Below are positions 1-32,680 of a DNA stretch of 64,000 nucleotides, one piece after another. A model generated the notes under the pieces. It was not told where the DNA came from. It was given only the letters and a program-made list of their open reading frames with translations, and searched no databases. A program made the translations under genes and the position numbers. How positions within the stretch are numbered: the first letter of the stretch is position 1; every line of letters begins with the position of its first letter. The stretch is from Gracilimonas sediminicola (GTDB taxonomy: Bacteria; Bacteroidota; Rhodothermia; Balneolales; Balneolaceae), in contig NZ_JANDBC010000001.1 in the NCBI RefSeq assembly GCF_024320785.1, positions 955,309 to 1,019,308 on the forward strand, written 5' to 3'.

Positions 1-50
1 AAGATAACACCCAACAAGGAACATTCAACATTGAGCGTTTAACCGTTAAT

Positions 51-212
51 TCATCATGGTAATCTCTTTAACCTGTAAATCAGGGTTCAAGTCTCTTCTT
101 TATAGAACACGGATGAGTGGATAGGGCTGACGTTCGCTGATAAAATCCAATCATGGTAATCCTAAAATCCCACAAATCAAGGTTCAACAACTGTGTTATG
201 AACCTTGATTTG
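51..212. repeat. Diverged direct and inverted copies of an intergenic repeat
   Basis: Two similar direct copies lie at 51-90 and 149-187; both begin TCATGGTAATC (after a short lead-in) and end in GGTTCAA. Between them is a tract with ACACGGATGAGTGGAT and GTTCGCTGATAAAATCC. A third, inverted piece follows: 173-186 (CAAATCAAGGTTCA) and 199-212 form a perfect 14-bp inverted repeat with a 12-base loop. From memory, sequence of this type is scattered through Bacteroidota intergenic regions; that is recollection, not a search. It looks like decayed repeat debris rather than a functional site. The ACACGGATG word recurs near 39714. Confidence 0.6.
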
Positions 213-288
213 AAGGATGACGGGATTTACTTGATGAGCAACGATTGCCGACACAACCAATTCTTCTTTAACATCGAGGCTATTTCAG

Positions 289-309
289 ATTCCGGCTCAG
301 GGCCGGAAT
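289..309. repeat. Small GC-rich hairpin
   Basis: Eight-base perfect arms ATTCCGGC (289-296) and GCCGGAAT (302-309) around a five-base loop. No run of T follows on either strand, so it is a poor intrinsic terminator. It may be a fragment of a dispersed palindromic repeat. Confidence 0.45.
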
Positions 310-541
310 GATGACAATGGTGTTAATGAATGAAGAAAGGCCGATATCCTAAACATAGTCCGCGAATATCATCCCTACCTGTTTCATCCGCGTTCTATTC
401 CTCACCTTGTTAATGGCAAACACTCCTTCTTACCTGCCTATGTCAATCAAAAAAACTTTCAATAAAACTATCACATAAAGGGTGCAGAATGTTTATTTTT
501 AAGGTTCACAAAATTTTGATTTAACCCTCTACTCAATCACA

Positions 542-1594
542 ATGATGAAAGTTGGAATTCTGGGCGCTACAGGCGCTGTTGGCCAAAAATTTATTCGCTT
601 GCTTCAGGGGCACCCCTGGTTCGAAATCGAGGCACTGGGTGCTTCGGAACGTTCGGCCGGAAAGAAGTATAAAGATGCTGCCAACTGGATTGAAGATGTG
701 GTATTGCCCGAGCACATCAAAGACACCATCGTCAAAAATTGTGAACCCGGCGAATTTAGTAACGTGGATTTTGTGTTTTCCGGGCTGGATTCATCCGTTG
801 CCGGTGATATCGAAAAAGCTTTTGCAGAAGCCGGGATTCCGGTCATTTCTAATGCAAAAAACTACCGGCAGGACCCAACGGTTCCGCTGCTGATACCGGA
901 AATCAACCCGGATCATACCGACCTTATTAAAACCCAGTCGTTTAGTAAAGATGGGAAGGGCTGGATTGTGACCAACCCGAATTGTGTGGCCGTGCCGTTA
1001 TCGCTGGCGCTAAAACCATTGTTTGATTCATTTGGAATTGAAGCTCTTATCCTTACCACCATGCAGGCGGTTTCAGGAGCCGGGTATCCCGGTGTAGCCA
1101 GCCTGGATATTCTTGGTAACGTGGTTCCTTTTATTTCCGGAGAAGAGCCTAAGGTTGGACCTGAAACACGAAAATTATTAAGCACACTGAACGAAGACTC
1201 CCTATCACTTCCGGATTTTGACGTACAGGCTACTGCAACCCGTGTCCCGTCCATCAACGGACATATGATTTCAGCTACCGTGAAGCTGGAAAATCCTCCG
1301 GCTGATTTGGAGGAGCTGAAAAAAGCCTACCAAAACTACCGGAATCCTGTTGCCGAATTGGGTCTGCCTTTCTCACCGAAAGCACTCTACAACCTTCACG
1401 ACAATGAGTATTACCCACAACCCCGCCTCCATGCAGATTGGGAGAATGGGATGCAGCTGCATTTAGGGCGATTGAGAAAGGCCGATGTATTTGATGTCAG
1501 CTTTGTGGCTATGGCTCACAACACCATTCGTGGTGCGGCCGGCGGTGCCATTTTAAATGCGGAATTGCTAACCAAAAAAGGATATTTAAAATAA
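542..1594 (+). CDS. asd: Aspartate-semialdehyde dehydrogenase
   Basis: Reduces L-aspartyl-4-phosphate to aspartate semialdehyde with NADPH, the branch point to lysine/diaminopimelate, threonine and methionine; cytosolic. The 350-residue protein opens with the nucleotide-binding loop GATGAVGQ (residues 9-15), has the active-site signature NPNC with catalytic Cys148, the QAVSGAGYPG segment (175-184) and the conserved His241 in NGHMISATVK. The length and the GAGYPG-type motifs fit the archaeal/fungal-like ASADH subfamily rather than the E. coli-like one. Two ATGs are adjacent (542 and 545) and either could be used. It stands alone, convergent with the gene ending at 1668, and no other lysine or threonine genes are nearby. 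Confidence 0.95.
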   Translation: MMKVGILGATGAVGQKFIRLLQGHPWFEIEALGASERSAGKKYKDAANWIEDVVLPEHIKDTIVKNCEPGEFSNVDFVFSGLDSSVAGDIEKAFAEAGIPVISNAKNYRQDPTVPLLIPEINPDHTDLIKTQSFSKDGKGWIVTNPNCVAVPLSLALKPLFDSFGIEALILTTMQAVSGAGYPGVASLDILGNVVPFISGEEPKVGPETRKLLSTLNEDSLSLPDFDVQATATRVPSINGHMISATVKLENPPADLEELKKAYQNYRNPVAELGLPFSPKALYNLHDNEYYPQPRLHADWENGMQLHLGRLRKADVFDVSFVAMAHNTIRGAAGGAILNAELLTKKGYLK

Positions 1595-1598
1595 ATCT

Positions 1599-1664
1599 CA
1601 AGCTCCAAATCCCAATTTACAATTAATTGATCATTGGATTTGGTACTTGGTACTTGGTGCTTGG
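1599..1664. repeat. Word-repeat palindrome between convergent genes (TACTTGG)
   Basis: Left arm CCAAATCCCAAT (1605-1616) pairs with ATTGGATTTGG (1633-1643) apart from one missing base. The right side continues into a 7-bp tandem run TACTTGG, TACTTGG, TGCTTGG (1644-1664), which partly complements CAAGCT at 1599-1604. It fills the gap between asd and the minus-strand gene ending at 1668, so a bidirectional terminator role is plausible. Confidence 0.55.
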
Positions 1665-1667
1665 AAT

Positions 1668-2066
1668 TTATTCCCCTTCCATATCCCCGAGGCGTTTCTG
1701 CGACATATACAGGTTTATTTTGGTGGAAAACCGGATCGCTTCGTTCTTGTCGTTTCGTTTGATATTCAATTTAATCTTTCCCTGCTCGCTGCCCGGCAAT
1801 GGTTCAAAAAACGCCCATTGGTTGGCTTCGATAATTAATTTGCCTCCGGTAAAAAACAGGAGTCCTTTCTTATACTGTATCTTTTTGATGTGGTCGAGCT
1901 GTATGGAAAACTTGCTCAGGTTACTCAATCCGTTCCCCATCATATCATACACTTTGTACTCAAATAGCAGCTCTCCATCCAGGAAGCTCAGAATTCCCTT
2001 TACCTCCTTAACCTCCACTTTTACATCTTCGGTTTCATACATCGAATAGTTAAAAGGAATGCTCAT
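1668..2066 (-). CDS. Unknown protein, paralogue of the gene at 2070-2447
   Basis: A 132-residue protein with no signal peptide and no membrane segment. It is rich in short beta-strand-like stretches, with the pattern VKGILSF...GELLFEY near residues 22-38, then QLDHIKKIQYKKG and GGKLIIEANQ near 56-82, and an LYMSQKRLGDME tail. The next gene upstream carries the same blocks (VEGILR, LEYKKG, GKLILHGK, LKLSEQKLNELE), so the two are tandem duplicates. The start is three bases after the neighbour's stop, so they form an operon. The strand pattern and terminal helix are reminiscent of bacterial pleckstrin-homology-like folds; this is a guess and I do not recognise the family. Confidence 0.75.
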   Translation of the reverse strand: MSIPFNYSMYETEDVKVEVKEVKGILSFLDGELLFEYKVYDMMGNGLSNLSKFSIQLDHIKKIQYKKGLLFFTGGKLIIEANQWAFFEPLPGSEQGKIKLNIKRNDKNEAIRFSTKINLYMSQKRLGDMEGE

Positions 2067-2069
2067 GGT

Positions 2070-2447
2070 TTAATCTTCCAGCTCGTTTAGTTTTTGTTCG
2101 GAAAGCTTCAGGTTCAGATTGGATGAGATGCTGGCTGCTACATTTCGGTGCTTCCTTTTTACTTTTAATACGCGTTCAGTTAATTCCTTACCCGGCAAAT
2201 CCCCAAAAGATGATGCCCTTTTACCATGCAAAATCAGCTTCCCGCTAAACCATCCCTTTTTATACTCCAGCATATCCAGCTCCGATAGCGGTATGGTTTC
2301 AGTCCGAAGTTCAGACTGATAGGCCTCAACCACAGCGTCTTTTTTCTGGAATTCAAACACCAGATTCTCTCCTTCCACGCGCAGAATTCCCTCCACTTTC
2401 ATGAATCCGCCGTTTAAATTTTCGATAGAAAAAGGAAGACTTCGCAT
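2070..2447 (-). CDS. Unknown protein, first gene of a duplicated pair
   Basis: A 125-residue, probably cytosolic protein. Blocks in order: MKVEGILRVEGENLVFEFQ (residues 16-34), ETIPLSELDMLEYKKGWFSG (50-69), KLILHGK, then a basic LKVKRKHRN segment and a C-terminal helix KLSEQKLNELED. All blocks align with the following gene, showing tandem duplication and divergence. It is divergent from the giant lamin-tail gene at 2718. An in-frame Met at residue 16, directly before the shared block, is an alternative start. No function is proposed; a PH-like small beta-barrel is the best structural guess. Confidence 0.75.
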   Translation of the reverse strand: MRSLPFSIENLNGGFMKVEGILRVEGENLVFEFQKKDAVVEAYQSELRTETIPLSELDMLEYKKGWFSGKLILHGKRASSFGDLPGKELTERVLKVKRKHRNVAASISSNLNLKLSEQKLNELED

Positions 2448-2577
2448 ATGCGTTACTGATTTTTAATGATTTAGGTGTGTTTTAAAAAACTTCTAAAAAA
2501 GTACAAAAAATCTGTAAGGAGTGCGCGTTTCATCGCTCTAACTAAACAGCTAACAAAAGAGAAAACTAATCATTGCC

Positions 2578-2649
2578 TTGAGAATGACACAACATTCTCA
2601 ATGTCCTTCCAGGGGTAAAAGGTGGAACATCCTTTTACCCTATTTTTTT
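2578..2649 (+). terminator. Hairpin followed by a strong intrinsic terminator in a divergent gap
   Basis: Two adjacent plus-strand hairpins. The first has perfect 9-bp arms TTGAGAATG (2578-2586) and CATTCTCAA (2593-2601) with a six-base loop. The second has perfect 10-bp arms GGGTAAAAGG (2613-2622) and CCTTTTACCC (2631-2640) followed at once by TATTTTTTT. This is a classic Rho-independent terminator reading rightward, but no plus-strand gene precedes it: the upstream gene runs the other way. It therefore ends either a small RNA starting around 2450-2570 or the leader of the gene at 2718 (attenuation). No clear TAnnTTTG promoter was found upstream. Confidence 0.7.
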
Positions 2650-2717
2650 ACCGGGAATATTTTTTCCTGCAAGTCATTAAACAATTGTTTTAATTGGCTA
2701 AATAAATATTCGGGAGC

Positions 2718-5700
2718 ATGAGGGTACTTTTACTTATGATATTGTGGGGATTGCCCTGTATCATTTTGGGGCAGTCGGCAAACTTTGAAGATGACTTTTC
2801 CGATCAGGATATTTCTGACTGGTCCGGAGATACCGGGAATTTCATCTTTACAGAAGAAAGCGGAAATACCCTGCTTCAGCAAAATGCTCCCGGTGCCGGC
2901 GTTTCTTACCTGAGCATTCCCTCCACCAATACCATCGGCTACTGGGAGTTCTTCGTTCGCTTTGACGGATTCGGCCCTTCTAACGGTAACAAAGCCGAAA
3001 TCTACCTGATGAGCGACAATCAGGATCTCACATCTTCTCTGAACGGATACAAACTAAGGGGTGGCGAAAATGGCAGCGCCGATGTATTCAGGCTATTCAG
3101 AATCACCAGTGGCAGTGAAGCAACGGAGGTACTTACCGGAACTACCGATATCAGTTCCGGCGGTGATTATCGGGTAAAAGTAACCCGCGATGCGTCCGGA
3201 AACTGGACGCTTGAAGTCGCTGAGGGTTATGCCGGCGTGCTTTCCGTGGAAGACACCGGAGCCGACAACACCTATACTTCCACCTCCTATTTCGGATTTA
3301 AGAACACATATTCTTCAACCCGTTCTGACCTGTTTTACTACGACTTCAAAATTGACATTCCCCCTGTTGAAGTTACTTCCGTTTCTTTGGTCAGTGATAT
3401 CGAAATAGATGTCATATTTTCCCGGGATATTGATTTTTCCTCCGTTCAAACCTCCGATTTTGTTTTGAATCCCGGCGGAATAACTCCTCAATCTGTGAGT
3501 CAGCAAAGTGGCGATACCACACGCATTACGTTTTCTTCAGCCATTTCCAGCGGACCAAACTCCCTTACTATTTCCGGTATTGAGGACAACGCCAATGAAA
3601 CCACCTTAGCCGATACCACCTTCTCGTTTTTTGTGTATGATGGTTACCAAACCGGGGATGTAATCGTCAATGAGTTCATGAAGGACCCGCCGCCGGGCAC
3701 AGCCGAATATCTGGAACTTCGAAATACTTCTTCCCGATTTTTAAATCTGAGGAACTGGCAGCTTGGAGATAATAACTCACTCAGTACCATTTCTTTTTCA
3801 AATTTTACTCTGCAGCCCGATAGTTTTGTAGTGGTATCATCCGATACTTCCGCCTTAAATACGTATTATGGTGATGCGGTATATCTTCAGGCTTCTCTCC
3901 CGGCCTTCAATAATGGCGGAGACCAAATTCGGCTTTTTGATGAATCCGGCAGCCTTATCGATTCCCTGCAATATGATGATGACTGGGGAGGGGAAGATGT
4001 GTCACTGGAACGCAGAAGCTCAACGGTTTCCTCTGTTTATAAAGAGAACTGGGGAGACAGCCCGAGCGCAGATTTCGGAACGCCGGGATTTCCCAACCAG
4101 GTTCAGCCCGACAACACACCGCCCTTTATTTCATCGCTGGAGGTGGAAGACAGCCAGACGTTATTATTGGTCATTTCTGAACGCGCAGAAGCTTCCTCAG
4201 CGCAAGACCTAAACAACTACTCCTTAAGCCAAAACCCGAAGGCAGGTGTAGTAACACCGCCCATTCCCGGAATATCTTCCATTCAGCAAATAGCGCCGGA
4301 TTCGTTGCGTATTTCTCTGGATACCGAACTTCAGGAATACGATGGCAGCTGGACATTAGCGGTCAGCAACCTCACCGATATTTTTGGGAATAGTACTGAT
4401 CGTGAAACGGACTTCAATTACTATGTGATTTTTTCTGCCGAGCCCAATCAGGTGGTGATTAATGAGTTTATGTATGATCCCGGTGACGGATTTTCGGAGT
4501 TTGTGGAGCTTTACAACCATTCGGACAGTTCATTCAACCTCCAAAACTGGACATTCAGTGACAATACCGGCGATGATGAAGTACTCACCACAAACAGCTT
4601 TGTTCTTCCCGCTGGCAAATATGTTGTTCTGGCTCCTGATAGTCTTTTAGCCGTTTCCTTTCCAAACATTTCGCTTATTGATATGGGAAGTCGTTTTTCA
4701 TCCCTGAACAACAGCTCCGATGCCATCGTCATCAAAAACCAAAATGGACTGGTTATTGACTCCCTGAGTTATGAAGACAATTGGGGTGGTGAAGAAATCT
4801 CCCTGGAAAGAAGAACGGAAACGGTGACCGGAATTTACCGGGAAAACTGGGGCGATTCTCCTTCTGAGAACATGGCCACACCCGGCAGGGAAAATGAAAT
4901 CCCGGCAGATTCATCCCCTCCACAAATAAACGATGTTTTCCTTACTTCTGAAGATGCCATCCGTGTTATCTACTCAGAGAGAATTATTGCACAAGCGGCT
5001 ACAGACACAGAAAACTACGATCTCTCTGCCGAATCTTCCTTTACCGGAGCCGTCCCGGGCATTCAATCAGCCATACTCTTTCCACCGGACACGGTATTGC
5101 TTCAGTTTGATAACGTTTTGGAGAGTGACCCTTCCGGCACCAACTATCAACTCGACATCTCCGGTCAATCCGATGTATTTGGTAATGTATCGTCTTCCCT
5201 GAGTTCCTCATTTTTCCTGATTGAATATGCACATCCTGATTCGGGAGCAGTAGCCATCAGCGAATTTATGTACGACCCCGCTGAAGGGTTTTCAGAATTC
5301 TTGGAATTGGTGAACCGCACCGACAGCGCCTTTAACCTGAAACAGTGGACCTTTAATGACAACACGGGAAACAGGCGAAGGATCTCAGATACCACCTATA
5401 CCTTCCCTCCCAACTCCTACCTGGTGCTTACCCCCGACAGTACCCTGCTTGAATCTTATCCCGGCATTCCTGCTCTCGTCATCGGCAGCCGGTTTTCTTC
5501 TCTTAATAATTCCACCGATGCCATCGTAATCCGAGACGCATCCGGGACACTTCTGGATTCCCTTACTTACACCTCCAGCTGGGGCGGAGACGAAGTTTCT
5601 GTTGAACGAAGGTCGTTCGGTTTCGCTGCAACTTTTAAAGAAAACTGGGGCACTTCTCCTGCCGTTGATGGAGCCACACCCGGACTTCCCAATCAAATCC

Positions 5701-8483
5701 CGGAAGATGAGAAGCCTCCCGAAATTCAATCGTTGTCAGTTGTAAATGACAGCACGCTTCAGCTTATTTTTAACGAACGGGTGCAGCCGGTGCCGGCCAC
5801 TAATCCCGAAAATTACGATTTCTCCGCCGTTTCAAATGCTACCGGTAATTCAGTCAGCCCTGATTCATTTAACTACCTTGCACCTGACACGGTAATCATC
5901 TCTTTCCCTGCTAAGATCCCCAAGGAAGAAACCGGAACTACCTATCAGCTCAGGGTTGGCAATCAAATGGATGTGTTTGGAAATACCTCCGGGGATTTGG
6001 TAGCTGAATTTTTCCTTATCGACCTGGCCGAAGCCGGAAGGGGTGATGTAGTTGTAAACGAGTTTCTGTATGAACCGGAAGAAGATTACACAGAGTTTAT
6101 TGAATTGTATAATCCAACCAACAAAAACTACGACCTGCGTAACTGGACGGTGAATGACAATACGGGAAATCGCAGGGAAATGACCTCTTCCGGCCTTGAA
6201 CTCACCCTTAACTCTTACCTGATTCTTGCCCCGGACAGTTCCTTTCTCGAACTTTTCCCGAACCGGCCAACTATCATCCTTGGCAGCCGGTTTCCTTCAT
6301 TAAATAATAGCACCGATGCCATTGTAATCCGCAACGCTGCCGGGGAATTGATCGACTCTTTAACCTATACATCCGACTGGGGTGGAGAAGGAGTTTCGCT
6401 GGAGCGCAGAAGTCCCGATTTCCCGTCGATTTATAAAGAAAACTGGGGCGACTCACCTGCCGAAGTAAAAGCCACCCCGGGGCTTGCTAACGAGATTGAA
6501 CAGGATAATGAAGCACCTGTACTTGAGAGTGCGTTCATCACTTCGGCGGATTCCATTCGGATGATTTTTGATGAACGGATTGATTCTGCGTTGGCCACAG
6601 ATATTTCCAACTATTCCATCTCTTCACCTTTATCAATTGCTGAAGTAGCAAACTATGGTGGGAACCTGGTGACCTTGGTTCTGAGCACTTCTTTATCCAG
6701 TGGCGACTCGTTCACCATTTCTGTTCAGAACCAACAGGATATTTTTGGGAACGCCATGACTTCAGCCTCGGCAGATTTGGAGTACACGGTTTTTTCTCCG
6801 GTTACCCGAAGGGATGTCATTATAAACGAAATTCTATACCGCAGGGCGAGTGCCGAATCAGCAGAGTTTGTCGAGCTCTACAACCGAACGGGCAATAATT
6901 TCAACCTAACCGGCTGGACTTTTTCTGATGCCACCGGTTCCGCCACTATTCCGGAAGGAACCATTATCAAAAGTAATGAATATGTGGTGCTTACCGATTC
7001 TGAAGATTTTGCCACAGGCAGCGGCAGCGCTCTTGCCAAAGCTATAGCAAATGGGAAAGTGGTTTATCTTTCAGGATTTCCTTCCCTGAATGATGATGAA
7101 GATGCCGTAGTCATCAAAGACGAAAACGGGATGATTGTTGACAGTTTGTTTTACAAGGAAACCTGGGGAGGAAATGAACCCGGCATTTCATTGGAGCGAA
7201 AAGATCCTGAATCGGCATCGAACGATGCCGGCAACTGGGCTTCCAATACTTCTGAATCAGGCAGCAGCGCCGGTGCACAAAGTTCGATCTATCAACCCGA
7301 CCAAACCCCACCTGAAATTGTATTCGCCAAACTGCAGACTGACGGTAAAATCTATGTGGCATTTTCAGAATTTGTTCGCTCCTCCGGTACGGGTCCAATA
7401 ACTGTAAATGATGAGCCCGCCACCATCACTGAATACAATGAAGAAAATGCGAATATCCTCATCATTGGGGATGTTGCCTACCCAACCGGAGAGCCTTTGA
7501 CCGTTGCCTTTGGGCAGGCAACTGATTTCCGGGGTAATACGTCCGGGGAGCTGGCAATTGAAGTGTCTCAGCCTCTTTCCAAAGGCAATGTGGTGATTAA
7601 TGAAATTCTGTTCGACCCTCTGGCTAATTCTGATGACAACCTCCCCGATCAAACCGAATATGTGGAATTCTACAATCGGGCGAATTATGCCGTTTCTCTG
7701 GAAGGGTTTTTTATTCATGATAAACCGGACGAGAATAACGAGATCCGGTCTGTGCATCCTTTCTCTTCTGAGTTCCGATGGATTCCGGCTGGCGGAACCG
7801 TTGTGTTTTATGCTGAAGATCAAACCCCGGTTTTCAGTGAAAGTCGGCTGGCCGAATATTTTGAGCTGGAAGGTGAAGGTGAATTGTTCTTTATCCGGGC
7901 TGATCGGACGAATTTAAGCCTGGCTTCTTCCGGAGATGCCATTTACCTGGCAGACAGTACCGGGACAACCATCGACTCGGTGTTTTATGATGAAAGCTGG
8001 CACAACCCGAATTTATATGATGTTGACGGTGTGGCCCTGGAACGTATTGATCCTGTCGGGCCAAGTAATGATGCAACCAACTGGAGCTCAAGCACCGCTG
8101 TAAGTGGCGGAACACCGGGGCAGCAAAACTCCATCTTTCAGCAAGCCGGAGCCGGCCCGGATGATGCCGGTATCACCTTCTCCCCAAATCCCTTTTCTCC
8201 CGATGACGATGGTTTTGAAGATAACTTGTTCATTAACTATAAACTGGAAGAACCGGACTACCTGTTACGTGTCCGCATTTTTGATCGTTATGGGCGGGAA
8301 GTCCGCAAGCTGGCTGATGGCAAACAAGCTGGCTTTGAAGGCTCCCTGATTTGGGATGGGTTAAAAGACAACGGCTCAAAAAACCGGGTGGGTATTTATA
8401 TCGTCCTTTTTGAAGCCTACAATAGTGCTGAAGGAAAGAATAAGACGTTTAAGAAGACGGTGGTGTTAGCAAAGAAATTCTAA
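2718..8483 (+). CDS. Giant secreted protein with six lamin-tail repeat units
   Basis: A 1921-residue secreted or surface protein. It has a signal peptide (MRVLLLMILWGLPCIILGQ), an N-terminal LamG/concanavalin-like region (about 25-210) and an Ig-like segment. Six units spaced about 255-267 residues follow, each opening with a lamin-tail domain start such as VVINEFMYDP (near residues 314, 579, 843, 1110, 1366 and 1624). Units carry a WTFSDNTG-like strand, SRFSSLNNS, a DSL.Y...WGG.E.SLERR block and KENWGDSP. Between lamin-tail domains sit Ig-like segments with an I..IYSERI...ATD..NYDLS pattern, like Big_5/SbsA Ig domains. The C-terminus (about 1815-1921, FSPNPFSPDDDGFEDNL ... FDRYGREV ... WDG...NG) resembles FlgD/CHU_C-type sorting domains, suggesting type IX export. 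Role unknown; adhesion or a matrix function is inference. Confidence 0.85.
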   Translation: MRVLLLMILWGLPCIILGQSANFEDDFSDQDISDWSGDTGNFIFTEESGNTLLQQNAPGAGVSYLSIPSTNTIGYWEFFVRFDGFGPSNGNKAEIYLMSDNQDLTSSLNGYKLRGGENGSADVFRLFRITSGSEATEVLTGTTDISSGGDYRVKVTRDASGNWTLEVAEGYAGVLSVEDTGADNTYTSTSYFGFKNTYSSTRSDLFYYDFKIDIPPVEVTSVSLVSDIEIDVIFSRDIDFSSVQTSDFVLNPGGITPQSVSQQSGDTTRITFSSAISSGPNSLTISGIEDNANETTLADTTFSFFVYDGYQTGDVIVNEFMKDPPPGTAEYLELRNTSSRFLNLRNWQLGDNNSLSTISFSNFTLQPDSFVVVSSDTSALNTYYGDAVYLQASLPAFNNGGDQIRLFDESGSLIDSLQYDDDWGGEDVSLERRSSTVSSVYKENWGDSPSADFGTPGFPNQVQPDNTPPFISSLEVEDSQTLLLVISERAEASSAQDLNNYSLSQNPKAGVVTPPIPGISSIQQIAPDSLRISLDTELQEYDGSWTLAVSNLTDIFGNSTDRETDFNYYVIFSAEPNQVVINEFMYDPGDGFSEFVELYNHSDSSFNLQNWTFSDNTGDDEVLTTNSFVLPAGKYVVLAPDSLLAVSFPNISLIDMGSRFSSLNNSSDAIVIKNQNGLVIDSLSYEDNWGGEEISLERRTETVTGIYRENWGDSPSENMATPGRENEIPADSSPPQINDVFLTSEDAIRVIYSERIIAQAATDTENYDLSAESSFTGAVPGIQSAILFPPDTVLLQFDNVLESDPSGTNYQLDISGQSDVFGNVSSSLSSSFFLIEYAHPDSGAVAISEFMYDPAEGFSEFLELVNRTDSAFNLKQWTFNDNTGNRRRISDTTYTFPPNSYLVLTPDSTLLESYPGIPALVIGSRFSSLNNSTDAIVIRDASGTLLDSLTYTSSWGGDEVSVERRSFGFAATFKENWGTSPAVDGATPGLPNQIPEDEKPPEIQSLSVVNDSTLQLIFNERVQPVPATNPENYDFSAVSNATGNSVSPDSFNYLAPDTVIISFPAKIPKEETGTTYQLRVGNQMDVFGNTSGDLVAEFFLIDLAEAGRGDVVVNEFLYEPEEDYTEFIELYNPTNKNYDLRNWTVNDNTGNRREMTSSGLELTLNSYLILAPDSSFLELFPNRPTIILGSRFPSLNNSTDAIVIRNAAGELIDSLTYTSDWGGEGVSLERRSPDFPSIYKENWGDSPAEVKATPGLANEIEQDNEAPVLESAFITSADSIRMIFDERIDSALATDISNYSISSPLSIAEVANYGGNLVTLVLSTSLSSGDSFTISVQNQQDIFGNAMTSASADLEYTVFSPVTRRDVIINEILYRRASAESAEFVELYNRTGNNFNLTGWTFSDATGSATIPEGTIIKSNEYVVLTDSEDFATGSGSALAKAIANGKVVYLSGFPSLNDDEDAVVIKDENGMIVDSLFYKETWGGNEPGISLERKDPESASNDAGNWASNTSESGSSAGAQSSIYQPDQTPPEIVFAKLQTDGKIYVAFSEFVRSSGTGPITVNDEPATITEYNEENANILIIGDVAYPTGEPLTVAFGQATDFRGNTSGELAIEVSQPLSKGNVVINEILFDPLANSDDNLPDQTEYVEFYNRANYAVSLEGFFIHDKPDENNEIRSVHPFSSEFRWIPAGGTVVFYAEDQTPVFSESRLAEYFELEGEGELFFIRADRTNLSLASSGDAIYLADSTGTTIDSVFYDESWHNPNLYDVDGVALERIDPVGPSNDATNWSSSTAVSGGTPGQQNSIFQQAGAGPDDAGITFSPNPFSPDDDGFEDNLFINYKLEEPDYLLRVRIFDRYGREVRKLADGKQAGFEGSLIWDGLKDNGSKNRVGIYIVLFEAYNSAEGKNKTFKKTVVLAKKF

Positions 8484-8500
8484 ATGATGAATTTTGAATG

Positions 8501-8530
8501 TTAAATTGGGCTTGAGCAAGCTCAATTTAA
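8501..8530 (+). terminator. Hairpin after the lamin-tail gene
   Basis: Arms TTAAATTGGGCTT (8501-8513) and AAGCTCAATTTAA (8518-8530) pair fully with one G-T wobble around the loop GAGC. It lies 17 bases after the stop codon. There is no T run after it, so termination is likely but not certain. The preceding bases (AATTTTGAATG) belong to the same word style as the palindrome at 38616. Confidence 0.5.
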
Positions 8531-8569
8531 ATGATATTAATGTAGTGACTTGAACCGAAAACCCTCATT

Positions 8570-9097
8570 ATGAAAAAAGCCAGGCTGCCCTTTCTGATTT
8601 TTGTTCTTGGGTTCACCTCTATTCATGCACAGGATTCTGTTCAAACATCTACTTCATGGCTCCAAATAGGGGTTGGCCGTGGTTTCATGGATAATATTGA
8701 TGATGCAACTTCGGCTCTTATTGGCTTTCAACTCCAACATAATCGCCATCTTTTTTCTTTCCGCACTTCGATTACCGGTAATATTATCGGTACTTCTTAT
8801 CAAGATTTTGGAATTTTATACGGCCAAATTCTGACACCCCCAAATTCCAGGTTTATGGGATCAATGAGTTTGGGAGCCGGATTTAGTTTAACCAATCAAA
8901 GTAATATTTGCCTTTTCGGGTGTGGTTCAAGCTCTTCTTCCACCAAGGCTAAGTTTACAGTACCTGTACAAGCCAGTTTCCAGTATCGACCATTCAAGTT
9001 TTTAGGTTTTGGGATTACAGGAATAGGTAATTTCAACACTTATCGAAGTTATTCAGGATTGCTATTTTCCATCCATTTAGGACGGTTCAGAGACTGA
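8570..9097 (+). CDS. Small secreted/outer-membrane protein of unknown family
   Basis: A 175-residue protein with a clear signal peptide (MKKARLPFLIFVLGFTSIHA, then QDS). The mature part alternates Gly/aromatic and hydrophobic residues, as in small beta-barrel or porin-like outer-membrane proteins (IGVGRGFM, GFQLQ, FSFRTSITGN, SMSLGAGFSL, VPVQASFQYRPFKFLGFGITG, LLFSIHLGRF). A short Cys motif CLFGC (114-118) followed by a Ser run could form a disulphide hairpin in a loop. It begins 86 bases after the lamin-tail gene, on the same strand, with a hairpin between, and is convergent with the TonB receptor. I do not recognise the family. Confidence 0.7.
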   Translation: MKKARLPFLIFVLGFTSIHAQDSVQTSTSWLQIGVGRGFMDNIDDATSALIGFQLQHNRHLFSFRTSITGNIIGTSYQDFGILYGQILTPPNSRFMGSMSLGAGFSLTNQSNICLFGCGSSSSSTKAKFTVPVQASFQYRPFKFLGFGITGIGNFNTYRSYSGLLFSIHLGRFRD

Positions 9098-9119
9098 AAC
9101 TAAATTCAATTAATTAACT

Positions 9120-9144
9120 CGCTCTGACGCTCTGCGTCGAAGCG
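9120..9144. terminator. Hairpin between convergent genes
   Basis: CGCT (9120-9123) pairs with AGCG (9141-9144), and GACGC (9126-9130) with GCGTC (9134-9138), separated by a 2x2 internal loop. It lies between the gene ending at 9097 and the receptor ending at 9164. There is no clear T run on either side; a bidirectional terminator is inferred from position. Confidence 0.4.
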
Positions 9145-9163
9145 AACCCCTATCAAATCCTTT

Positions 9164-11251
9164 CTAAAATTCAACATTCACCTTCACCCCGCCAAACCAA
9201 TTTCGGGGAGCGGCCGGCTGGTAGTAGCGTTCTCCAAAAGCATTCAGGTCGTTACCCAGGCTATACTTTTCATCCAGCAGATTGTCTATCCCCACAAAGA
9301 AATCGAAGGTCCAGTTGTCGATGAGTTCCTTTTTGAAACCTACTTTGGTCTGCACCAGGTGATAAGGGTTGGAATACACGGAATTGGCATCATTAAGGGG
9401 GATTTCATCGGTGAAGTTATAGGACAGGTTCCCGTAGAAGCCGGGTTCCGTTCCGGCTGTTATCGCTGACACAACGGTATGTGGAGCAACTCCCGTCAGT
9501 TTATTGCCAGAATAATCATTTCCGTCTTTCACGTAGTTCACAAATTCAAAATCGTGGTAGGTGTACGACAGGCTCCAATCAAGTTGCTGGAGAAAGGCCG
9601 CCGGATTTCGAATCATTTGCCAGTTTGCAGCCAGCTCCACCCCATACTGATCGGTGGCCCCGGCATTTCTAAAAATAACGGTTGAATTACGATCCGACTG
9701 CTGCTGTACAATGGTTTCTTCCAGCTTGAAATAGAAAGCTGTAACATCGTAGGTAAAGCGTGCGCTAACAACGGTACCACGGGCCCCAACTTCAAAATTG
9801 GTTCCCTGTTCCGCTTCTAAATCTAAAGCAATGCTGCCTTCATTGGTTCTGAACTCTTCGATGGTTGGGGGCGAGAATCCATAGCTGATACTCCCATGCA
9901 GGGAAAGCGCCGGGCTGAATTTCTTCAGCAACCCAATTCTTGGGATGATTTCCGGATCAAAAGTTTTACGCGCAAGGCCGGTGGTATCACCGGGAAGATT
10001 TGATACCAGTCGGTTCAAACTGTATTCCAGCCGGTTGTAACTGAGTCCGGCCGTGAGATAAAAGTCAGCGGGCAGGTCCATTTCAGTATTGAAGAACAGC
10101 AACGAAGATTCAATCTTAATTTCATCGTCAAAGTTTAACGCGCCCACTTTGCTGGTGTCATTTTCAAAATTTCGGGCCGCATAATTAGCCGCCTGAAATT
10201 CACCCCCAACCGTAAACCGCGTTCTCACCTCCCCGATATCTGTGTCAAAGTAAAAGCGGGTTCGTCCCCCGCCCGATTTCCGGCTGTCTTTTTTGTAATC
10301 CAGATTGAAGGGATTTTCAAAGGCACTGAAAGTTCCATACACATTAGTCAGATTTGAAATGTCATCGGTGATCTGCACATCATGACTAATGCCCGCTAAA
10401 AAAGATTGCTGATCAATACTCGCATTCGACTCTACACTTCCCAGTACAAAGGGATTGCCCGGCCGGGCCTGACTCGGATCATTTTGATATTGCTCCAGCG
10501 TCAATCCTCCCGGAATTCCGTAGTTCAGATCCGAATACAGGAAACTGGTCTTAATGATCTGCCTGTCATTCAGCTGAAAGCGTCCGGAAAGCTCAGCCGT
10601 CTGCCTGTTGAAAAACGTCTGATCCCGGTATCCGTCCGCATGCTGATTGGAATAGTTGAAACGAAGGCTTCCTTCATCAAATTGATTTTGGGCATAAGCC
10701 GTATAACGCTGCAATCCGTATGAACCCAGCATCAAGCCTGCTCCCACCTCATTTTGATTCGACTGCCGGCTTTCCAGCAAAAGAGCTCCTCCGTTTCCGG
10801 CTCCGTAAATACTGCCGGCCGGACCTTTAATCACTTCCACTTCCTGCATATTAATCACATCCAAAAGATTCAGGAAAGTGCTTCCGGAAGGCTCCGTAAA
10901 AGGAATACCGTTCCAGTAGACTTTCACATTCCGGACTCCAAAAGGAGCACGCAGGGAACTTCCCCGAATGGCTACCCGGTAACTTCCCGGGGCGCGCTGT
11001 TCAATCCGTACGCCGGGCACCGTATTCAAGCCATACAGCAAAGATCCCTCATCAAATCCACCGATAAGTTCGGGCTTCACATTGGTGATGGCTCCGGGTG
11101 TCTCCATCAGGCTTCGGTTCCCCTCATAGCCAACTACTACAATATCTCCGAGATCGGCTTTGAGAGTATCTAAATCCTGGCGGGCATAAAGCTGACTTGG
11201 GAATGATGAAATGAGAGAAAGTAAAAGAACCGCTGATGATTTTATGTGCAT
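9164..11251 (-). CDS. TonB-dependent outer-membrane receptor
   Basis: A 695-residue outer-membrane transporter that would bring a ligand across the outer membrane using TonB-ExbBD energy. A signal peptide ends near ARQ (about 23). A TonB-box-like segment DIVVVGYEG (36-44) is followed by the plug domain with GLNTVPGVRI, YRVAIRGSSLRAPFGVRNVKVYWNG, VEVIKGPAGSIYGAGNGG (about 75-160). The rest is a 22-strand-type barrel ending in the aromatic C-terminal residue F (VKVNVEF). The layout resembles FecA/CirA-type siderophore receptors, but the substrate cannot be read from sequence and no transport genes are adjacent. It is divergent from murI. Confidence 0.9.
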   Translation of the reverse strand: MHIKSSAVLLLSLISSFPSQLYARQDLDTLKADLGDIVVVGYEGNRSLMETPGAITNVKPELIGGFDEGSLLYGLNTVPGVRIEQRAPGSYRVAIRGSSLRAPFGVRNVKVYWNGIPFTEPSGSTFLNLLDVINMQEVEVIKGPAGSIYGAGNGGALLLESRQSNQNEVGAGLMLGSYGLQRYTAYAQNQFDEGSLRFNYSNQHADGYRDQTFFNRQTAELSGRFQLNDRQIIKTSFLYSDLNYGIPGGLTLEQYQNDPSQARPGNPFVLGSVESNASIDQQSFLAGISHDVQITDDISNLTNVYGTFSAFENPFNLDYKKDSRKSGGGRTRFYFDTDIGEVRTRFTVGGEFQAANYAARNFENDTSKVGALNFDDEIKIESSLLFFNTEMDLPADFYLTAGLSYNRLEYSLNRLVSNLPGDTTGLARKTFDPEIIPRIGLLKKFSPALSLHGSISYGFSPPTIEEFRTNEGSIALDLEAEQGTNFEVGARGTVVSARFTYDVTAFYFKLEETIVQQQSDRNSTVIFRNAGATDQYGVELAANWQMIRNPAAFLQQLDWSLSYTYHDFEFVNYVKDGNDYSGNKLTGVAPHTVVSAITAGTEPGFYGNLSYNFTDEIPLNDANSVYSNPYHLVQTKVGFKKELIDNWTFDFFVGIDNLLDEKYSLGNDLNAFGERYYQPAAPRNWFGGVKVNVEF

Positions 11252-11333
11252 GGGAACAAATTACAAAGCCTTGTATTAAGATTTAAGAATTGAATACCTT
11301 CTGGCAACAAATAATTCACTACCAGATACTCAT

Positions 11334-12143
11334 TTGCAAGATTTAAAGAACGCACCCATTGGAATTTTTGACTCAGGTATTGGCGGACTTACCGTAGCCA
11401 AGGCCGTGATTGATGCTTTACCCAACGAAGATATCATTTATTTCGGTGATACAGCCCGGGTTCCTTATGGTATCAAATCGGAAGAAACCGTACGTTCCTA
11501 TGCTCTTGAAATTACCCATTTTTTATTGAAGCGTGGTGTGAAGATGATTCTGATTGCCTGTAATACGGTTTCAGCCTCAGCCAAGGAAGAGATTATACAG
11601 GCTGCCGGCGACATCCCCGTATTAGATGTGATAACTGCCGGTACTAAAAATGCGGTTTCTCTGCCAAAGCATAATCACGTAGGAGTGATTGGCACATTAG
11701 CCACCGTTAACTCTCAGGCGTATTCCAAGTCCATTCATGCTTATGACCCAACCATAACGGTAACGCAACAAGCTTGCCCTATTTTAGTCCCATTGGCCGA
11801 GGAAGGCTGGATTGATAACGATGTGGCCCTGCAGACTTTACATCACTACCTGGATCATTTTGATGAAAGCGGTATCCAATCTCTTATTTTGGGATGCACG
11901 CATTACCCGCTGTTTAAAGACATTATCCCAAAGGTTCTGAAGGATGGAAACATTGAAATTATTGACTCGGCAGAATCTATCGCAGAATCGGCAAAAACTA
12001 AACTGAGTGAATTAGGTTTGCTGAATGAATCCGGTGGAGAGTTCCGTTGCTACGTGAGCGATCGCCCCCAGCGTTTTCATGAACTGGCCGAACGGTTTTT
12101 AGGCCGCAGCCTGAACGGTGTTGAAGTTGTAAGTTTGGGGTGA
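11334..12143 (+). CDS. murI: Glutamate racemase
   Basis: Interconverts L- and D-glutamate to supply D-Glu for peptidoglycan; cytosolic and cofactor-independent. The protein is 269 residues with GIFDSGIGGLTV (10-21), first catalytic Cys76 in ACNTVSASA and second catalytic Cys188 in ILGCTHYPLF. The start is a TTG: no in-frame ATG lies between the preceding sequence and the conserved core, and the core begins only about eight residues in, so TTG at 11334 fits family length. It is divergent from the TonB receptor with an 82-base AT-rich gap that must hold both promoters. Confidence 0.95.
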   Translation: MQDLKNAPIGIFDSGIGGLTVAKAVIDALPNEDIIYFGDTARVPYGIKSEETVRSYALEITHFLLKRGVKMILIACNTVSASAKEEIIQAAGDIPVLDVITAGTKNAVSLPKHNHVGVIGTLATVNSQAYSKSIHAYDPTITVTQQACPILVPLAEEGWIDNDVALQTLHHYLDHFDESGIQSLILGCTHYPLFKDIIPKVLKDGNIEIIDSAESIAESAKTKLSELGLLNESGGEFRCYVSDRPQRFHELAERFLGRSLNGVEVVSLG

Positions 12144-20031: not shown

Positions 20032-22576
20032 TAAGCTTTCGAAACAGTGTTTGGTTACCGGTATCCAGTTTATACAAGTAAACCCCGCTCGAAAATTTTC
20101 CGGACGATGCATCCCATCTAAATGAATGGGTTCCTTGCGGCTTCATTCCATTCTCCAGCACGGCTACTTCTCTCCCCATTATATCATATACCGCGAGCTT
20201 TACCCTGTCCGGTTTATCTAACCGGTAAGAAATGGTGGTCGTCGGGTTAAAGGGGTTTGGATAATTTTGATACAGCTCAAAGCCTTTGGCAATTTCTTCG
20301 TCTTCCTCCTTTTCTATTCCCACCAGCACTCCACTGTTTTCTGCTCCCGGGGTTCCATGCCCCACCGAAGCCGCCCAATTTTCCGCTTGTGAGTTATCCA
20401 GCTTAGGATGGGTAAGGGAAAGGGTTGCCCCTTCTCCATCAGCCTCTGCCGGCCAGGGTGGGTCATCACTATAAGTAACCTGGTCCACGATTTCTCCGGT
20501 ATTGTTAAAAAGGCGAACAAGTTCACCGCTTCCGGCAAATCCAAAATCGAGGTCTCCTACATAATTATTCACTTCAGGAAATAGTGAAGTAAACATGGCG
20601 CTGTCTCTGGTAAGCACTAAAAACCCGCCACTTTCTACTATAGTGCCATCAGCGAAAGTGTAAATGTGCTCATCGTCGGAATCGGAGAAGTACCAGCCTC
20701 CTAAATCAATATTTGAGTCGGTATTATTATAAAATTCAATCCAGTCTTCGGGATCAAAATCTTCAGCTGAATTGTAGTTTATCTCATTGATCACGACCGG
20801 AGTATCATCGGATAGATCATTTCTTTTGAACACCGCCGTTAAAGATTCCTCACTTTCAATGGTAATATCTGCTTCAGTGTTGGTGCCCGACGCCTCACCG
20901 CTCCAGCCCACAAAAGTGTAGCCCGGAGCCGGAATCGCTTTAATAGTGGTTGGTATGGATTTATAAATCAAAACCCAATCGGTAGTATCCGAACGAACCG
21001 TTTCAACTGTCACTGCCCCACCCTCGGCAGGACTTGAAGAGACTTCCAGTTTAGTTACCCCCGAAACCTCAAAGAAATTCTGAAGATGTGTCCGCGCTTT
21101 TGTTTGCCTGCTCCTCACAAAAACCTTCATTCTTTCCAGATGTTTTTCCCAATTCATGCCCGAACCCAACCGGAATGACTTTTCCCATCGGTCCATATGC
21201 CGGGGAATTTCAGATTCTATAAGTGCGGCCGTACTGTCAATAACTCCCAAAAGCCGCCCCGGCGAAAAAGATGCCTGTATGTGAATACTATATCGCTGAA
21301 TAAATGTATTCCGAAAACGTTCATTGGTTAGCAAACTTCTGAATAGAAACGTCGACCATCCCGGATTTGCATAATAGATGTTGTTGGTCGTAGCCACCAG
21401 CTCCAGGCTGTTGGTATCATCCTGCCCAAAAGTGTGGCTGTTCATCGTCATATCCATGTCATACATTATCCAGCGCCACTTTCCTCCCGGAACCTGAGGC
21501 CTCCAGAATCGAATGTTATTAGCCGGCCAATCTCCATTCGCCATATAGATTTCAGTAAGCACATAGTCGATATACTGGTCGATATGCATTTGACGACTAA
21601 CCCACTCGTAATTTTCCTGTACCGACAGGTCGTTATTCTTCATGAAGTCAATCATGGCCTGGTAATGCGTATCTGATCCTTCTTTCACATTTGCATTTCC
21701 TGTGAGGATATCGAGTTCGTCTTCATCATAGCCGTAATTCGATTCAATGAAATCCTCATTTTGCTTTTCACGCAGGATGTGAATCCCCCAGTATTCACCA
21801 TTTAAGAAAACGACAACCGGCTTAAAAGCTTGGTATCCTAAATCCATCCGATCTTTCATCATGGCCTGTATGGATGCATTCCTGATCATAGCTCTGTACC
21901 AATCCTGCCCTCCACTTCTCAGGGCCAGCCGGTCAAACTCAGTAAAAGGTTTATCCTCAAAAAGGGGATAATTCAGCTTCTTGGGACCATACTCTTCCCG
22001 AAAATAGATATCCAGTGATTTTTGATCGTACAGCCGGGTACAACCTCCTCCAATTTTCACCCCGGCGTTTACGCTAAAACCGGGAGTGTGATCTTTTTCG
22101 AAGAAGGCCAGATGGACCGGACGTTCCCAGTCCTGATTCCAGTTTTTGGGAGTGCTTCTGCAGTATCCGGGAATGCCATTAGTACCTTCCACATAGATAC
22201 CGGCACTGTCTGAGAAAAACCCGGCAGGATTTGTGGTTACGGATAGAATGGGCAATTCGGTCGGTTCATCTATAAAATATGATCTGAAAAAGAACGAGGT
22301 GTCTGCACGATCATCGGATAAAATCATGACTCGTAAAACAGAATTTTGGGTAATAGACAATGAATCCTGAAAAAGCGCACTTGCAGAATCCGGGAAGGCT
22401 CCGTCAAGTGTATAGAAAATGGATGAAGAATCGGACACACCCTCAATTTGAACGATCACTGAATCTGAATAGAAGCCGCTGTCGGTAATATGGATTTCAT
22501 TTTGAGCCTGCACCTTAACTACAGAACAAATGATGATTAGAAATGCGACTGATTTTAGAAAATAGGCTCGGTACAT
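20018..22576 (-). CDS. Secreted CotH-kinase-like protein with lamin-tail and type IX sorting domains
   Basis: An 852-residue surface protein. The signal peptide ends near VQAQ (25). A chitobiase/hexosaminidase C-terminal-like domain follows (ITDSGFYSDSVIVQIEG ... IFYTLDGAFPD, about 29-110). The CotH-like kinase domain (about 150-500) has DQKSLDIYFREEYG, LNGEYWGIHILREKQ and YDMDMTMNS, the last resembling the metal-binding DxD of CotH. Next come a Gly-Trp repeat module (GYTFVGWSGEASG, about 560), one lamin-tail domain (PVVINEINYNS, about 600-730) and a sorting tail with YQNYPNPFNPTTTISY. CotH proteins phosphorylate spore-coat proteins in Bacillus; the target here is unknown. It is the second lamin-tail protein in the window. 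Confidence 0.88.
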   Translation of the reverse strand: MYRAYFLKSVAFLIIICSVVKVQAQNEIHITDSGFYSDSVIVQIEGVSDSSSIFYTLDGAFPDSASALFQDSLSITQNSVLRVMILSDDRADTSFFFRSYFIDEPTELPILSVTTNPAGFFSDSAGIYVEGTNGIPGYCRSTPKNWNQDWERPVHLAFFEKDHTPGFSVNAGVKIGGGCTRLYDQKSLDIYFREEYGPKKLNYPLFEDKPFTEFDRLALRSGGQDWYRAMIRNASIQAMMKDRMDLGYQAFKPVVVFLNGEYWGIHILREKQNEDFIESNYGYDEDELDILTGNANVKEGSDTHYQAMIDFMKNNDLSVQENYEWVSRQMHIDQYIDYVLTEIYMANGDWPANNIRFWRPQVPGGKWRWIMYDMDMTMNSHTFGQDDTNSLELVATTNNIYYANPGWSTFLFRSLLTNERFRNTFIQRYSIHIQASFSPGRLLGVIDSTAALIESEIPRHMDRWEKSFRLGSGMNWEKHLERMKVFVRSRQTKARTHLQNFFEVSGVTKLEVSSSPAEGGAVTVETVRSDTTDWVLIYKSIPTTIKAIPAPGYTFVGWSGEASGTNTEADITIESEESLTAVFKRNDLSDDTPVVINEINYNSAEDFDPEDWIEFYNNTDSNIDLGGWYFSDSDDEHIYTFADGTIVESGGFLVLTRDSAMFTSLFPEVNNYVGDLDFGFAGSGELVRLFNNTGEIVDQVTYSDDPPWPAEADGEGATLSLTHPKLDNSQAENWAASVGHGTPGAENSGVLVGIEKEEDEEIAKGFELYQNYPNPFNPTTTISYRLDKPDRVKLAVYDIMGREVAVLENGMKPQGTHSFRWDASSGKFSSGVYLYKLDTGNQTLFRKLTLIK

Positions 22577-32644: not shown

Positions 32645-32680
32645 AAAGCCCCGCCCATAAATTATGGGCGGGGCTTTTTT
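32645..32680 (+). terminator. Intrinsic terminator of hppA
   Basis: Perfect 14-bp GC-rich stem AAAGCCCCGCCCAT (32645-32658) with ATGGGCGGGGCTTT (32664-32677), a five-base loop and a T run to 32680. The clearest terminator in the window. Confidence 0.93.

Follow-up and report, generated by a model that had tools for sequence, protein, structure and literature searches.

Organization of the Locus

The analyzed window, a stretch of 64,000 nucleotides (64 kb) of Gracilimonas sediminicola, contains a gap of 270 bases (2448–2717) between two divergent genes. The gene on the minus strand (2070..2447) has no Pfam family, and the gene on the plus strand (2718..8483) encodes a lamin-tail protein with six LTD stretches and a CHU_C type IX secretion signal. 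Both are the usual neighbors of the RNA described below, and, by analogy, the lamin-tail protein may be a surface DNA-uptake protein. Upstream on the plus strand, asd ends at position 1594 and is followed, up to the hairpins, only by mechanical ORFs lying opposite two minus-strand genes. The flanking genes thus agree with the preliminary description.

The same description placed two perfect hairpins in the gap, and a scan for perfect stems with loops of 3–8 bases found both of them there. Hairpin 1 (2578..2601, plus strand) has 9 bp and a loop of six bases (ACACAA). The intrinsic terminator (2613..2649, plus strand) consists of a 10-bp hairpin (2613–2640), or 11 bp if the G-U pair 2612–2641 is included, with a loop of eight bases (UGGAACAU) and a tract of seven T (2643–2649). 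In 2000 dinucleotide-shuffled versions of the gap, two such hairpins together arose twice; a perfect stem of at least 9 bp on the plus strand occurred in 46, and a perfect stem with a T tract on either strand in five. The fold of 2480–2655 had an energy of −39.8 kcal/mol vs. −27.5 ± 3.4 in shuffled sequences (z −3.58), and none of the 200 shuffles was equally low. A looser consensus terminator scan of positions 1–12000 revealed no excess of terminators (13 found vs. 13.4 expected), and the terminator at 2613–2649 was its top-ranked match. Elsewhere in the 64 kb, the sole other perfect stem of at least 9 bp with a T tract was located at 32645–32677, where it reaches up to 15 bp. As for known RNA families, one tRNA alone reached the Rfam gathering threshold in the whole window, and around the gap only chance-level Rfam matches were obtained at E up to 5.

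Conserved Structure and Distribution of the RNA

A small RNA gene of about 100 nt was assigned to 2548..2649 on the plus strand. Both ends are predicted: the start lies 5–7 nt past a −10 element, and the end corresponds to the T tract. A search with the gap sequence in 57 relatives returned 18 clear homologs, including that of the window itself. The conserved part extends from about 2491 to 2650; it stops at the T tract and excludes the stretch before the lamin-tail gene. All 18 nearest homologs contained the promoter box, hairpin 1, an invariant linker core GUCCUU and the terminator, and each of them, folded alone, formed the same two hairpins. The single-stranded linker (2602..2611, plus strand, UGUCCUUCCA) carries this core, which did not vary among the first 18 homologs and was retained in most of the others; it was altered in G066, G076, G077, G079, G086 and G104 and in some extra copies of the RNA.

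A first covariance model, built on the RNA alone without its promoter, matched 43 of the 92 Balneolaceae genomes at E up to 0.01. The asd locus was then read in 20 genomes without a model match (asd was found in 19 of them), which yielded 10 more RNAs that could be aligned to the model. In G020, the RNA was recognized by eye at the asd locus; it gave no match to the rebuilt model and stands outside the final count. A weaker look-alike in G030 was also left out of the counts. The rebuilt model of 53 sequences detected the RNA in 70 of the 128 genomes of the order, i.e., in 70 of the 92 Balneolaceae genomes and in none of the 36 genomes outside the family. The same search gave 16 extra matches, and a clear box was present in five of the nine that were read. 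Five model matches without a box in the upstream bases read (L132, L135, L255, L256 and L257) were excluded as homologs, and another (L240) had a degenerate box. Two near-identical extra copies of the RNA lie 18 kb apart in G099, and in G098 an extra boxed copy (L242, contig C72) precedes a gene that by eye resembles a ComEC metallo-hydrolase domain.

Covariance of the two stems in relatives, which had been proposed as a check of the hairpins, was examined, and both stems passed. In the 53-sequence alignment, standard pairs made up 95.3% of the paired cells, and 18 of the 19 pairs were changed on both sides, namely all 8 modelled pairs of hairpin 1 and 10 of the 11 of the terminator. The covariation score was 0.728 vs. 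0.231 in shuffled alignments (0 of 500 as high) and at most 0.164 in slid controls, values which refer to an alignment fitted to the covariance model. An unfitted alignment of the 18 closer sequences was weaker and pointed in the same direction, with covariation of 0.200 vs. 0.161 (5 of 500 shuffles) and 90.4% paired cells (2 of 500 shuffles). These data support the prediction that the hairpins are the body and the terminator of a previously undescribed, free-standing RNA of about 100 nt.

The Promoter Box

Upstream of the RNA, a −35 element of the ECF type (TGTAAGG, 2513..2519, plus strand) is separated by 16–17 bases from a −10 element (GCTCTAAC, 2535..2542, plus strand), which is lineage-specific and common to the box at a sigma factor gene considered below. 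On the 5′ side, the box is preceded by an A-rich element (AAAAAAGTACAAAAAATC, 2495..2512, plus strand), which according to the alignment is conserved beside the RNA gene in the nearer genera. In the upstream sequences of 43 homologs, this element was replaced by plainer A/T runs in the lineages g6 and g19. TGTAAG was found at about the same distance from the main RNA copy in all 70 genomes (43 + 10 + 11 + 6), and this represents an independent check, because the covariance models never saw the promoter. Imperfect boxes, with deviations in the −10 element or after TGTAAG, were observed in G022, G083, G085 and G098.

When the box was searched for as TGTAAGGAAT-N12-GCTCTTACT with up to three mismatches, 25 sites were found in the genome of the window, all with fixed spacing within the box, and none in the reversed control. 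A stricter form, TGTAAGGA-N16-TCTnACT, was found in 25 of the 57 relatives, with no reversed matches in all 57; in the other families of the order it was not detected (0 of 23). The −10 element differs by lineage: it is GCTCTnAC in the genus of the window, GGTCTTAC in g6, TTCATAC in g19 (20 sites in G027 and 18 in G099) and GGTCATAC in G019 (10 sites), with no sites in the reversed controls.

The −10 elements of the RNA box and of the sigma gene box agreed at 97 of 112 positions vs. 74.8 in permuted pairs (0 of 20000) in 14 genera represented by one genome each, in a permutation test that ignores phylogeny. The spacers of the two boxes also agreed above expectation (101 of 182 positions vs. 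74.3 permuted); therefore, shared descent contributes to the agreement of the −10 elements. With the same box present at the RNA and at the sigma gene and the −10 elements drifting together, the promoter of the RNA is predicted to be of the ECF-sigma type.

The Linked ECF Sigma Factor

One of the boxes in the genome lies 4 bases past the last codon of a gene for a 181-aa protein and ahead of a TPR-protein gene. Judged by its sequence and its modelled structure, the 181-aa protein is an ECF sigma factor. TIGR02937 matched 23 of 23 sigma members at E up to 1 (best 1.4e-15), although the first member scored 36.8 bits, under the cut-off of 42.9. In Pfam, Sigma70_r2 was matched by 22 of 23 members at E up to 1, in weak or sub-threshold hits, and region 4 by five of 23. 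The predicted structure (mean pLDDT 82.8) matched ECF sigma factors in the PDB with a best E of 4.9e-4. The nearest named relatives of the protein came from Gracilimonas, Balneola, Fodinibius/Aliifodinibius and Rhodohalobacter, which are all Balneolaceae.

In the strict search, the box was located directly 3′ of the sigma gene at 19 of 30 loci. Reading of the remaining loci revealed variant boxes in most of them, including those in other families of the order; the sigma locus of G020 had no box. Based on this neighborhood and on the co-variation of the −10 elements, we infer that this sigma factor reads the box. The one-helix TPR protein encoded beside it is probably its anti-sigma partner. 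It should be added that the leader of the TPR gene, 3′ of the sigma gene, holds an inverted repeat at the loci L061–L076 (CAGAATGTATTTATAGAATACATTCTG in the genome of the window). Its loop varies in most relatives, and the repeat may act as an additional element in regulating the sigma operon.

Genes Behind the Box

According to Pfam, the first genes behind the boxes in the genome of the window encode ComM, RecF, RadC, ComEC, a phage-type integrase, RecQ and SSB, and the second genes encode RecA, RecN and exonuclease VII. RecF, RecN and RecQ were named by domain content and length, as Pfam gives only shared SMC_N, AAA_23 or helicase domains for them. The other genes behind boxes encode IS200-like transposases, 23S-IVP proteins and GIY-YIG proteins. 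With the RNA site excluded, 10 of 24 sites lead to genes of DNA uptake and recombination.

In a wider set of 95 sites from eight genomes, comM recurred in six genomes, radC in six, recN in five, recA in four, comEC in three, the integrase gene in three and the TPR partner gene in five. This set was complete for G000 (25/25, RNA included), G019 (10/10) and G022 (1/1), complete except for the own RNA, which was excluded, for G014 (12/12) and G025 (13/13), and partial for G002 (15/17), G099 (10/18) and G027 (9/20). No dprA was encountered at the sites read. ComF at L155 was identified by eye and had no Pfam match at 1e-8. In all three genomes with comEC behind the box (L042, L154 and L168, two genera), the gene starts exactly 4 bases past the box, a distance that suggests a leaderless comEC message.

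Thus, genes for DNA uptake and strand integration (comEC, comM, radC, recA and ssb) have a common box, and on this gene content the regulon is proposed to serve natural transformation. Since transposase-like, 23S-IVP and GIY-YIG genes are numerous among its members, its role may extend beyond transformation to recombination in general.

Several further observations concern individual sites. Small transposase-like or 23S-IVP genes are situated between the box and xseA, recN or recA at L031, L036, L060, L189 and L203, a pattern that looks like insertion of mobile genes behind these promoters. Many IS200/REP-type transposase genes have the same sigma box (L043–L045, L049, L055, L058 and L059), by which their expression would be coupled to DNA uptake; Pfam confirmed the transposases at L031 and L043, and the others were assigned by similarity or by eye. 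Upstream of recA (L060), the stretch 3′ of the sigma box by eye resembles the published LexA direct repeat, so that both the sigma factor and LexA may control recA. In G014 (contig C11), a sigma box at 21459–21489 and a LexA-like gene at 21562–21729 are divergent and about 70 bases apart.

Nature and Proposed Action of the RNA

Based on the above results, we consider it highly probable that the locus encodes a free-standing regulatory RNA of about 100 nt that belongs, as a noncoding member, to a regulon of DNA uptake and recombination under an ECF sigma factor. At the level of comparative sequence, the RNA structure, the terminator, the promoter box, the sharing of this box with the regulon, the parallel drift of the −10 elements at the RNA and at the sigma gene and the existence of the RNA at other loci are established. 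We suggest the following scheme. The ECF sigma factor, encoded elsewhere in the genome beside the TPR protein, would transcribe the RNA from the box at 2513–2543 and would also drive the genes of DNA uptake and homologous recombination. Upon release of the sigma factor, the RNA would be made together with the DNA-uptake proteins. Acting after transcription, it would then use the conserved linker (core GUCCUU) between the two structural hairpins to pair with mRNAs or to bind a protein. Two hairpins around a conserved single-stranded linker, with a terminator, are the anatomy of a pairing or protein-binding small RNA.

The searches for targets were negative, and therefore the mechanism after transcription is inferred. 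A 10-mer complementary to the linker had four sites in this genome, one being the RNA itself, vs. eight for the reversed sequence, and was not enriched. Among the genus loci, of which 30 of 58 places were read, complements of the linker at translation starts were shared by no more than two close genomes. Pairing with the mRNA starts of 24 regulon genes was no better than with mononucleotide shuffles (mean z 0.07). An anti-Shine–Dalgarno role of the linker was considered and rejected: the start-site targets were not recurrent beyond two close genomes, and no such motif was seen in the A-rich leaders at the four recA starts read. In G006, the linker has a perfect complement at the start codon of a gene that is radical-SAM-like by eye, and this match did not recur in the loci read. 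A pseudoknot between UUCCA of the linker and UGGAA of the terminator loop was likewise discarded; the two are complementary in the nearest homologs, but the pairing is broken or weakened at L008, L011, L012, L015 and L016.

The preliminary description had offered two readings of the terminator, a short untranslated RNA of roughly 80–200 bases or a leader of the 5.8-kb lamin-tail gene. The former is supported: a promoter box and a terminator belong to the RNA itself, its stems covary strongly, and copies of it exist at other loci. A leader or attenuator would imply a transcript from 2548 that stops at 2649 and continues into the lamin-tail gene only when read-through is allowed. The RNA lies on the same strand as, and upstream of, the same gene in most genomes: a lamin match was found downstream at 43 of 43 loci of the first-model set and at 8 of 11 and 5 of 6 loci of the later main-locus sets, and in the 43 loci the lamin gene usually starts within about 60–200 nt of the 3′ end of the RNA. 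However, a cis-acting leader is expected always upstream of one co-oriented gene, and this is not what was found. The start of the lamin gene lies about 1.4 kb farther downstream in G001 and G009, with a 413-aa gene in between in G001; G076, G077 and G079 carry the RNA at a different locus, where no lamin gene was located within about 2 kb; and G098 and G099 contain five extra boxed copies without a lamin gene nearby. The attenuator reading fails because such copies exist away from the lamin-tail gene. Moreover, single-sequence folds of the 18 nearest homologs gave the same two hairpins with no common alternative pairing seen, and the conserved core stops at the T tract, whereas the following stretch is not conserved. 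Hence, we regard a leader of the lamin-tail gene as quite improbable. Even less credible, to the point of being nearly negligible, is a short structured mRNA for a peptide. In its favor, a 45-aa frame opens within hairpin 1 and runs past the terminator. Against it, the longest ORF closed inside the RNA was 0 to 22 aa in the 43 homologs, with no conserved coding sequence, and the loop and stem lengths vary freely.

The other two explanations accept the RNA and assign it differently, and we give each of them only a very small chance. According to one, the box is the operator of a DNA-damage repressor and the RNA is a small RNA of the SOS response. The presence of recA, recN, ssb, recF and recQ within the regulon and a loose dyad in the box (GTAAG-N19-CTTAC) are in agreement with this, as are LexA-like domains in 29 of 31 relatives, obtained in a search that also matches archaeal controls and is not strictly specific. 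However, the published LexA motif of the Balneolaeota, established by gel shift, is the direct repeat TTACACATATTTTWTACATA (PMC7739468); it differs from the box at our sites. Neither the RNA (CTCTAAC) nor the TTCATAC lineages have an intact dyad, as expected of a promoter and not of an operator, and comEC, comM and the sigma operon would be unusual SOS members. According to the other explanation, the RNA titrates a protein (the sigma factor, its partner or RNA polymerase) rather than pairing with mRNAs. The linker UCCUUCCA resembles TCCTTACA, the complement of the −35 element, and the linker and hairpins are conserved, yet no mRNA target was found. Against this, the likeness comprises eight letters spotted by eye, and the last bases of the linker vary between genera, while the −35 element does not.

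Comparison with Known Systems and Biological Meaning

For the regulatory RNA of an ECF-sigma regulon proposed here, the closest kind among described systems comprises the sigma-E-dependent RNAs RybB and MicA and FoxI/FoxJ of Fusobacterium, in which an ECF-sigma promoter controls a noncoding arm of the regulon (PMC1804206, PMC11005410). FoxJ was also once taken for the 5′ UTR of its neighbor (PMC11005410). The sigma-E RNAs deal with envelope stress and envelope proteins (PMC1804206, PMC11005410), whereas the genes here are those of DNA uptake and recombination.

RocR of Legionella pneumophila is similar as a small RNA tied to natural competence; it pairs with the 5′ UTRs of DNA-uptake mRNAs via the chaperone RocC (PMC7973641). 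In contrast, the present RNA and the DNA-uptake genes have a promoter box in common, and no pairing between them was detected. The csRNAs of Streptococcus pneumoniae resemble it as competence-control small RNAs with several copies, but they are driven by the response regulator CiaR and not by an ECF sigma factor, and they belong to a different phylum (PMC4507080). The Balneolaeota LexA/SOS regulon shares with our regulon the control of recA in the same family; it includes recA and translesion polymerases and uses another DNA motif and a repressor, in contrast to the sigma factor here (PMC7739468).

In a natural-transformation screen of Riemerella anatipestifer, a ComM-type (YifB) protein and two envelope proteins were obtained (PMC8459023); by analogy, this makes a DNA-uptake role of the regulon, and perhaps of the lamin-tail surface protein, plausible. 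In the open-licence literature, we found no small RNA or competence regulator in this phylum, and a text search with TGTAAGGA gave nothing related among the matches listed.

Taken from the shared box, it appears that the Balneolaceae, a family of marine bacteria, switch the RNA on together with genes of DNA uptake and recombination. The best reading of the motifs is that this regulon is distinct from the published LexA/SOS regulon of the phylum, which offers a ready contrast, since recA belongs there too (PMC7739468). It is possible, at slightly less than even chances in our estimation, that the whole family runs natural transformation by a dedicated, LexA-independent ECF sigma factor, and that the RNA, as its noncoding arm, is produced along with the uptake machinery and silences or activates genes so as to bring the cell into a DNA-uptake state. 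If true, this would be an ECF sigma factor that, together with its RNA arm, is dedicated to DNA uptake and recombination, not to envelope stress. The sigma factor, its promoter, the gene set and the conserved RNA form one testable system, which opens the control of DNA uptake in these bacteria to direct testing.
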